Positions 46,508-48,422 of a stretch of DNA of 64,000 bases are shown here, piece by piece. Every line of letters begins with the position of its first letter. Position 1 is the stretch's first letter. The notes below the pieces were generated by a model, which saw nothing but the letters and a program-made list of their open reading frames with translations, did no database searches and had not been told where the DNA came from. The position numbers were made by a program, and so were the translations under genes. Source of the stretch: Flavobacteriales bacterium (GTDB taxonomy: Bacteria; Bacteroidota; Bacteroidia; Flavobacteriales_D; Sanyastnellaceae). The stretch lies in the NCBI GenBank assembly GCA_029245065.1, contig JAQWQB010000105.1:62001-126000 (forward strand), written 5' to 3'.

Positions 46508-47746
46508 ATGAAATTTGACCCGGTCATATTGAGTATCCCCATTTTCTTCTTCCTCATTGGAGTAGAATTAGTCATTGACGGAATTCACAAGAAAAAATCC
46601 GGAAACTCCACCTACCGATTGAACGATGCTTTCACAAACATTTCGTGTGGAATTATAGATCAGACCACCGGTGTTTTTGCGAAGGTGCTGACGGTAGCCG
46701 CTTACGCCGCCGTATTCTCACTCTTCGAATTCAAGACGCCTTGGACGATTGAACCGTCGTGGTATGCATATGTCATCTGCTTTGTAGCTGTTGATTTGGC
46801 CTACTACTGGTCGCACCGTTTAAGTCATCAAGTCAACCTTTTCTGGACGGGTCATGTGGTACACCATCAAAGTGAAGACTACAACCTTTCGGTGGCCCTT
46901 CGGCAAGGAGCTTTTCAAAAAATGCTCATGTTCTGGGTGTACCTTCCTCTAGCTATTATTGGTTTTCCGCCTGAATGGTTTCTGTTGAGCATTGGCTTCA
47001 ATTTGCTGTATCAATTTTGGATTCACACGGAGTACGTGTCGAAAATAGGTTGGTTCGAATGGATACTCAACACGCCTTCTCATCACCGTGTACATCATGG
47101 GCGAAACCCAAAATACATCGATAAGAACCACGCAGGCGTCTTCATCATTTGGGACAGGTTTTTTGGGACGTTCCAGGAAGAGGAGGAGAGGCCGACTTAT
47201 GGCATCACCAAGCCGCTCGAAACATTCAACCCGGTTATGGCACATGTTAGACCGTTTACAGAATTGTACCTCGAGACAAGTAGAGTTCCAGGTATCATCA
47301 ATAAAGTGCGATTCTTATTTGCTCCTCCAGGGTGGTACCCGGCCAGCATGGGAGGATTTCAATCAGCGCCAGAAGTAAAGTCTACTGATGGGAAATACAA
47401 CAAGACCTTACCGTTGGGAGTGAATATCTATTTACTCGTGCAGTATGCCCTGGTCATTGGTATAACGGCTACGTTTTTGTTTGGATTGGATGCGTATACT
47501 TCCATCGGTCAAGGGGTTTTTGTAGCGTTTATTTTGATCCAGATTTTCACTATTGGCAGTATCTTTGACCAATCAAACAGAGGGAAATTAATTGAGTGGT
47601 TCAGGATAGCAACGCTATTTATCTTCGCCATTTGGTTAGGGTTAGTTGCCAACCAAGCACTTATAGGAGGAGCCGTCTTTAGTGTCGGTCTCACAGCTGC
47701 TGCATGGTTCGCAATATTGATTAAGAGAAATGAAAAATTCATTTAA
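46508..47746 (+). CDS. fatty acid hydroxylase family membrane protein resembling alkylglycerol monooxygenase
   Basis: This 412-residue membrane enzyme has the eight-histidine di-iron pattern of the family: HRLSH, GHVVHHQSEDYN and HRVHHGRN. The stretches HHQSEDYNLSVALRQ and ILNTPSHHRVHHGRN, IDKNHAGVFIIWDRFFGTF closely follow the animal alkylglycerol monooxygenase (AGMO/TMEM195), more so than sterol desaturases. AGMO cleaves the O-alkyl ether bond of glycerol ether lipids with tetrahydrobiopterin and oxygen, releasing a fatty aldehyde. Whether this one uses that cofactor is not shown. The next gene, a lysoplasmalogenase-like protein, overlaps by 17 bp. Confidence 0.85.
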   Translation: MKFDPVILSIPIFFFLIGVELVIDGIHKKKSGNSTYRLNDAFTNISCGIIDQTTGVFAKVLTVAAYAAVFSLFEFKTPWTIEPSWYAYVICFVAVDLAYYWSHRLSHQVNLFWTGHVVHHQSEDYNLSVALRQGAFQKMLMFWVYLPLAIIGFPPEWFLLSIGFNLLYQFWIHTEYVSKIGWFEWILNTPSHHRVHHGRNPKYIDKNHAGVFIIWDRFFGTFQEEEERPTYGITKPLETFNPVMAHVRPFTELYLETSRVPGIINKVRFLFAPPGWYPASMGGFQSAPEVKSTDGKYNKTLPLGVNIYLLVQYALVIGITATFLFGLDAYTSIGQGVFVAFILIQIFTIGSIFDQSNRGKLIEWFRIATLFIFAIWLGLVANQALIGGAVFSVGLTAAAWFAILIKRNEKFI

Positions 47747-48422
47747 GGGCAAAGCCTTAATTGGTGTTTACGCCATTTGGGCCATCATCGAAATTTACCT
47801 CGAGACAATTCGATGGGATTATGAATTAATTCACTTGCTGTTCAAAGGAGGGCTCATGCCTATTTTGATGGCGTTCGTAGTTGTCAATAGAGCCATTCTA
47901 CCTAAAAACATCATTGGCTTTCTCATGAGCGCTTTGGCTTTTTCATGGATTGGTGATTTGCTGTTAACTCAAGGTGAAAACCCCAATTATTTCGTTTTTG
48001 GTCTAGGTGCTTTCTTGGTTGCTCACATTCTGTATGCAATGACCTTTACCAAGGCAATGCAAAAGAATCATGAACTCCTATTGATCAAGAAGTACCCAAT
48101 GATTATTGTCTTATTAGTAGGTGCATCAGGATTCATTTTTAAGGTGCTATTCCCGTACTTAGACGAGATGATTGTACCTGTTGCGTTATATACATCTGTC
48201 ATTACCGCCATGTGTTTGGCTGCCGTTGCCCGCAAGGAGAAAACACCATTCAAAAGTTGGTTGTTGGTCACCATAGGCGCGTTGATTTTTATGTTCTCAG
48301 ATAGTTTAATAGCCTTCAATAAGTTCCACGAACCCATTGCGTGGGCATCAATCATGATCATGTCGACTTACATTTTGGCGCAAGCGCTGATTGTAGTGGG
48401 TGTAATGAATCACGAGGCCTAA
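47730..48422 (+). CDS. YhhN/TMEM86-family lysoplasmalogenase-like membrane protein
   Basis: This 230-residue protein has about eight hydrophobic helices and the conserved family segments SWIGDLLLTQG, NYFVFGLGAFLVAHILY and FMFSDSLIAFNKF, the sites of conserved aspartates. Family members (animal TMEM86A/B and bacterial YhhN) hydrolyse the vinyl-ether bond of lysoplasmalogens to a fatty aldehyde and glycerophospho-base. The gene starts inside the end of the AGMO-like gene (17-bp overlap), so both are made together. It points to a shared role in ether-lipid metabolism. Confidence 0.85.
   Translation: MKNSFKGKALIGVYAIWAIIEIYLETIRWDYELIHLLFKGGLMPILMAFVVVNRAILPKNIIGFLMSALAFSWIGDLLLTQGENPNYFVFGLGAFLVAHILYAMTFTKAMQKNHELLLIKKYPMIIVLLVGASGFIFKVLFPYLDEMIVPVALYTSVITAMCLAAVARKEKTPFKSWLLVTIGALIFMFSDSLIAFNKFHEPIAWASIMIMSTYILAQALIVVGVMNHEA

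Follow-up and report, generated by a model that had tools for sequence, protein, structure and literature searches.

Genes at the locus

The window analysed here is a stretch of 64,000 nucleotides from a Flavobacteriales bacterium (contig JAQWQB010000105.1, positions 62,001 to 126,000 of the forward strand). Two genes stand alone on the + strand of the window, between positions 46508 and 48422. Gene 1 (46508-47746, + strand, ATG start) encodes a putative AGMO-like membrane di-iron monooxygenase of 412 amino acids. Gene 2 (47730-48422, + strand, ATG start) encodes a membrane protein of 230 amino acids that belongs to the YhhN/TMEM86 family by its match to PF07947 and is a putative lysoplasmalogenase. 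Both reading frames share 17 bp (47730-47746, + strand), as would fit a unit of two translationally coupled genes, which may also be co-transcribed. Upstream of the pair lie a divergent DUF4286 gene and a second gene, rsmA/ksgA as judged from its sequence, and downstream lies a convergent gene with a large protein product. Scans of the locus for promoters and terminators returned signals at chance level only. An earlier note on this DNA had already placed two reading frames with a 17-bp overlap at these positions, and this was confirmed. It had also described them as 'fused in an operon'; the overlap of the genes agrees with that wording, but the proteins are two separate products.

Relationship of the first protein to AGMO

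Protein 1 matched the Pfam family FA_hydroxylase (PF04116) with 101 bits (E 7e-29). Its C-terminal helical region (residues 305-373; 47420-47626, + strand) matched the AGMO C-terminal domain AGMP_C (PF24858) with 21.5 bits, below the cut-off of 28.3, and the same domain was matched by 23 of 77 bacterial homologues at E <= 0.001 (best E 1.4e-6). The human AGMO query was a reconstructed sequence of the correct length, 445 residues, which agreed with the published residue at each of 16 positions compared. Protein 1 showed 38% identity to this reconstruction across 367 residues (263 bits), and a profile of the 77 bacterial homologues matched it over nearly the full length with 409 bits. The other two FA_hydroxylases of the genome, in turn, scored about 47-51 bits against protein 1. 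Within this comparison, which covered human AGMO and the two FA_hydroxylases of the genome, the distance between the scores argues against a sterol or carotenoid hydroxylase. When the same two FA_hydroxylases served as outgroup in a tree, the bacterial AGMO-like proteins grouped together with human AGMO (99/98), with a warning from the program that the human sequence and the outgroup are long branches meeting. In databases such genes usually go by 'sterol desaturase family protein', which masks this much closer relation to AGMO.

The AlphaFold model of protein 1 had a pLDDT of 94.1. Neither protein 1 nor protein 2 had a solved relative in PDB sequence searches, whether the query was a single protein or a profile, and Foldseek gave no significant match to the model of either. 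Residues 16-227 of protein 1 were aligned by VIA-align with the Scs7p hydroxylase (4zr0) at Z 5.0 and an rmsd of 6.1 over 181 aligned residues, a match below the reliable level.

As a member of the FA_hydroxylase superfamily, protein 1 could instead hydroxylate a membrane lipid that the cell itself makes and that has no ether bond (for example ornithine, glycine or sulfono-lipids), much as the ornithine-lipid hydroxylase OlsE does, in which case the pairing with YhhN would reflect general membrane-lipid remodelling. The superfamily, which OlsE and protein 1 share, is broad, Bacteroidota produce amino- and sulfonolipids, and the OlsE model (NCBIfam NF052566) was matched weakly by all 77 homologues. 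However, protein 1 reached 62.3 bits against that model, far from its cut-off of 475, as compared with the 263 bits obtained with the reconstructed human AGMO, with which it shares 14 of 16 functional residues. Simple hydroxylation would moreover leave the aldehyde dehydrogenase neighbour described below unexplained, and this explanation is regarded as unlikely.

A scan of species genomes found AGMO-like proteins in several phyla. Short AGMO-like proteins of about 300 amino acids (L200, L207 and their relatives), many of them from Flavobacteriaceae, lack the C-terminal helical region and form a separate, well-supported clade. Pseudomonas, Delftia and Caballeronia plasmids (records H1-H5) also carry AGMO-like genes, with 33-37% identity, which, where annotated, are named 'sterol desaturase family protein'.

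Active-site residues of the first protein

The residues were checked in an alignment with 80 homologues, 46 of them paired with YhhN and 34 unpaired, using the human numbering (PMC3617469; PMC7911779). The nine catalytic histidines listed for AGMO (H132, 136, 145, 148, 149, 201, 221, 224 and 225; PMC7911779) were kept in protein 1 and in 80 of 80 homologues. His boxes 1 and 2 lie within residues 103-133 (HRLSHQ...HVVHHQSEDYNLSVALRQ; 46814-46906, + strand), and His box 3 with the essential residues that follow it within residues 193-216 (HRVHHGRNPKYIDKNHAGVFIIWD; 47084-47155, + strand). The earlier note had recognised AGMO-like di-iron histidine motifs in this protein and had singled out the segments HHQSEDYNLSVALRQ and ILNTPSHHRVHHGRN; both segments are present as quoted, and the conservation of all nine histidines together with the FA_hydroxylase match upholds that reading. 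Q162, D233, N235, W243 and D244, which are essential in AGMO, were likewise all kept.

Two positions differ. Tyr236, essential in human AGMO, is replaced by His in protein 1 (H208), as it is in 43 of the 46 paired homologues. Glu137 is needed for BH4 binding in human AGMO, where the change E137A raises the Km 18-fold, and has been reported missing from other FA_hydroxylases (PMC3617469); protein 1 has Gln at this position (Q108). Of the 46 paired homologues, 33 have Glu at position 137, 7 have Gln, 5 have Val and 1 has Ile, with Val or Ile occurring in another paired lineage, and Glu is found in 29 of the 34 unpaired homologues. Because of these two replacements, the protein is labelled here AGMO-like and not strictly AGMO; it probably works like AGMO, as far as its sequence indicates. 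Further differences from the animal enzyme (AGMO/TMEM195, EC 1.14.16.5), to which it is similar in length, are its bacterial origin, the overlap of its gene with a YhhN gene and the sub-cut-off match of its C-terminal region.

The second protein

Protein 2 matched the Pfam family YhhN (PF07947), scoring 146 bits where the cut-off is 25.6, in agreement with the family named in the earlier note. Eight catalytic residues have been proposed for TMEM86A/B (K43, G81, D82, H104, G182, S189, D190 and Y213 in TMEM86A numbering; PMC11994398), and protein 2 has all eight (K39, G75, D76, H99, G183, S190, D191 and Y214), with the residues counted over 45 homologues. Its AlphaFold model (pLDDT 89.5) is a helical bundle, which VIA-align related to the GPCR/rhodopsin/ceramidase-like bundle, a common arrangement. 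Lysoplasmalogenase activity (EC 3.3.2.2) is established for the human, Legionella and Mycobacterium tuberculosis members of YhhN/TMEM86 (PMC9052158). Protein 2 resembles these enzymes in its family, its eight residues and its fold, and is a putative lysoplasmalogenase; unlike theirs, its gene is coupled to an AGMO-like gene.

Conservation of the pair

The pairing was surveyed in 395 genomes of the same class, in which 104 homologues of gene 1 were found at E <= 1e-80, distributed over 88 genomes. A YhhN gene was located within 5 kb of 51 of these 104 loci, always downstream and on the same strand, whereas gene density alone would be expected to yield about 0.3 pairs by chance. One of the 51 (in genome G348) has a YhhN match below the cut-off and 3 kb away. 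The paired genomes belong to 12 families. Among 47 measured pairs, the reading frames overlap in 28 and are at most 60 bp apart in 33. The pair from which the earlier note had proposed a module recurs in the class in one order and on one strand, and the module idea survives this comparison with other genomes. A second phylum has the opposite order, with YhhN directly upstream of the AGMO-like gene in the Gammaproteobacteria Dyella japonica, D. acidiphila and D. flagellata. The two genes overlap at the Dyella loci L189, L191 and L201, around 4970. At another locus (L121, genome G317), two YhhN genes follow the AGMO-like gene in a row, and that genome also has a PEDS1/CarF homologue.

Adjacency might be an inherited accident without a functional link, as many of the pairs may stem from a single ancestral arrangement in the class. 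This sits poorly with the spread of the pair over 12 families at constant strand and order and with frequent overlap. Further, in a tree of 159 proteins the pairing label requires 12 changes, at least 8 of these changes being forced by well-supported branches, with gains not separable from losses, and the pair is reversed in Dyella. An accidental origin is for these reasons hardly credible.

No prior description of the AGMO-like/YhhN pairing was found in the open-licence PMC papers covered, which is weak evidence of absence, and no paper there brings together 'lysoplasmalogenase' and 'sterol desaturase'. The two families were already known; what was not found in that literature is the conserved bacterial AGMO-like/YhhN unit, its association with ALDH3 in some lineages and the variation at the pterin-binding Glu.

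Linked aldehyde dehydrogenases

When the neighbouring genes were clustered, a class-3 aldehyde dehydrogenase (ALDH) was the next commonest after AGMO and YhhN, at 12 loci, 8 of them with the pair; some of these loci share one genome, and two have only a distant ALDH on the opposite strand. About six pair-bearing genomes from three families (f22, f39 and f25) have the linked gene. It completes the order AGMO-YhhN-ALDH in one set of lineages and lies directly upstream of AGMO in another. Among the solved relatives of the linked ALDH are ALDH3A1 and, at 452 bits, the human fatty aldehyde dehydrogenase (4qgk). Because a fatty aldehyde is the expected product of both AGMO and YhhN, this linkage lends independent support to the proposed chemistry. 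It is restricted to a minority of lineages and absent from the window; the source genome has an ALDH homologue with 38% identity that is unlinked to the pair. In mammalian ether-lipid breakdown, AGMO or TMEM86 acts first and ALDH3A2 follows. The same three types of enzyme adjoin in several bacterial lineages, whereas the animal genes form no operon and the ALDH3-type gene of the source genome stands apart.

Four loci (L083, L100, L112 and L120) present a wider neighbourhood, comprising an Abhydrolase_2 carboxylesterase, a Cbp1-type lipoprotein, an FAD-linked lactone oxidase, ALDH3 and the AGMO-like gene, and in some of them also a subtilase and YhhN. The esterase of that neighbourhood could supply a deacylation step.

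Pterin cofactor and origin of the lipids

The earlier note had pointed to tetrahydrobiopterin synthesis genes as relevant to an AGMO-like function, and such genes are present, though not specific. In the source genome, GTP cyclohydrolase I (GCH-I) directly follows a PTPS gene with the motif CxxxxxHGH, which is of the biopterin type (PMC5041015); the best relatives of this PTPS with a solved structure are of the mammalian type. The genome also has a pterin dehydratase (PCD) and a Biopterin_H aromatic hydroxylase. Nearly all of the genomes sampled, the controls among them, have PTPS-II-type genes, and PTPS was for that reason rejected as a specific marker of AGMO carriers. Since pterin genes are so common in the sample, BH4 use is permitted, not proven. 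No support was obtained for a link between loss of pterin genes and Gln or Val at position 137 (PCD and Biopterin_H compared between Glu and non-Glu, p = 0.25 and 0.08). At one locus (G067:C22:15151-17030), an AGMO-like gene that does not adjoin YhhN is immediately preceded, on the same strand, by a Biopterin_H aromatic hydroxylase gene.

No PEDS1/CarF homologue was found in the source genome, nor was DUF2229, taken here to mark the anaerobic (PlsA-type) enzyme of plasmalogen synthesis. This makes exogenous ether lipids the likelier substrate, unless gene 1 supplies the vinyl ether for gene 2, and the substrate is probably exogenous. Of the two sources envisaged in the earlier note, lipids taken from the environment are accordingly the likelier, and lipids made by the cell are weakened by the missing markers. 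Another genome of the survey (G100) combines the three-gene set with a PEDS1/CarF homologue and DUF2229 matches, and that organism might make its own plasmalogens.

A supply of vinyl ether by gene 1 would amount to a sequential route. The AGMO-like enzyme would desaturate an alkyl ether, or hydroxylate and dehydrate it, to a vinyl ether, and YhhN would then hydrolyse this lysoplasmalogen intermediate of the cell's own making. Desaturases are among the members of the wider membrane di-iron superfamily, the two genes are tightly coupled, and YhhN has no evident native substrate in a genome with neither PEDS1/CarF nor the PlsA-type marker. Moreover, Glu137 and Tyr236 are altered in many paired proteins, and an enzyme with altered pterin-side residues might make vinyl ethers or draw on an electron donor other than BH4. 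If true, this would be an aerobic bacterial route of ether cleavage through a lysoplasmalogen intermediate, and would account for YhhN in organisms that make no plasmalogens. On the other hand, protein 1 is close to human AGMO (the reconstructed sequence), whose chemistry is direct cleavage, and the class-level survey also found YhhN genes without an AGMO-like partner. A sequential route is on balance judged quite unlikely, and the same doubt attaches to the altered pterin side as its source of vinyl ethers or as a sign of another electron donor.

A proposed coupled unit for ether-lipid cleavage

The reading favoured here, with moderate confidence, is that the pair forms a coupled unit that would cleave the sn-1 ether bond of exogenous lyso-ether lipids, of both the alkyl and the vinyl type. 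Using O2, a di-iron site and a reduced pterin, the AGMO-like protein would hydroxylate alkylglycerols or lyso-alkyl phospholipids at the carbon of the alkyl ether, and the resulting hemiacetal would give a fatty aldehyde and glycerol or a glycerophospho-base. The YhhN protein would hydrolyse lysoplasmalogens at their vinyl ether, with products of the same kinds. A class-3 aldehyde dehydrogenase, whose gene is linked to the pair in some relatives but stands apart in the source genome, would then oxidise the fatty aldehyde. The known AGMO reaction is the hydroxylation of saturated alkyl ethers in lipids whose sn-2 hydroxyl is free, and AGMO cannot use vinyl ethers (PMC3617469). YhhN enzymes hydrolyse the vinyl ethers of lysoplasmalogens, again with a free sn-2 hydroxyl (PMC9052158), and the known ones are described as lysoplasmalogen-specific (PMC9052158; PMC9131029). 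Both together would therefore cover both types of ether.

The substrates would most likely be eukaryotic or detrital ether lipids, serving as nutrients or removed as toxic lysolipids. Protection might even be the whole purpose of the module, which would then not be catabolic and would clear toxic lyso-ether lipids derived from a host or prey. A protective role has been argued for M. tuberculosis YhhN, which has lysoplasmalogenase activity in an organism that makes no plasmalogens (PMC9052158). Such a proposal departs from the favoured view in physiology only, and no stress or transport genes are prominent around the pair; a purely protective module appears improbable.

In conclusion, comparison of sequences suggests that the pair is a bacterial pathway of ether-lipid breakdown, one that the current annotation 'sterol desaturase family protein' conceals. 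To our knowledge, ordinary lipases cannot break ether lipids. A review of AGMO describes its gene in animals, and the enzyme has resisted purification (PMC3617469). Bacterial homologues of about 40% identity, accompanied by a gene of the lysoplasmalogenase family, would offer a tractable system for this notoriously unstable enzyme, and as the pterin glutamate is naturally replaced by Gln or Val in some of them, its role can be tested directly. The pair would also explain the presence of YhhN proteins in bacteria without plasmalogens and would mark a route of ether-lipid recycling in common Bacteroidota.
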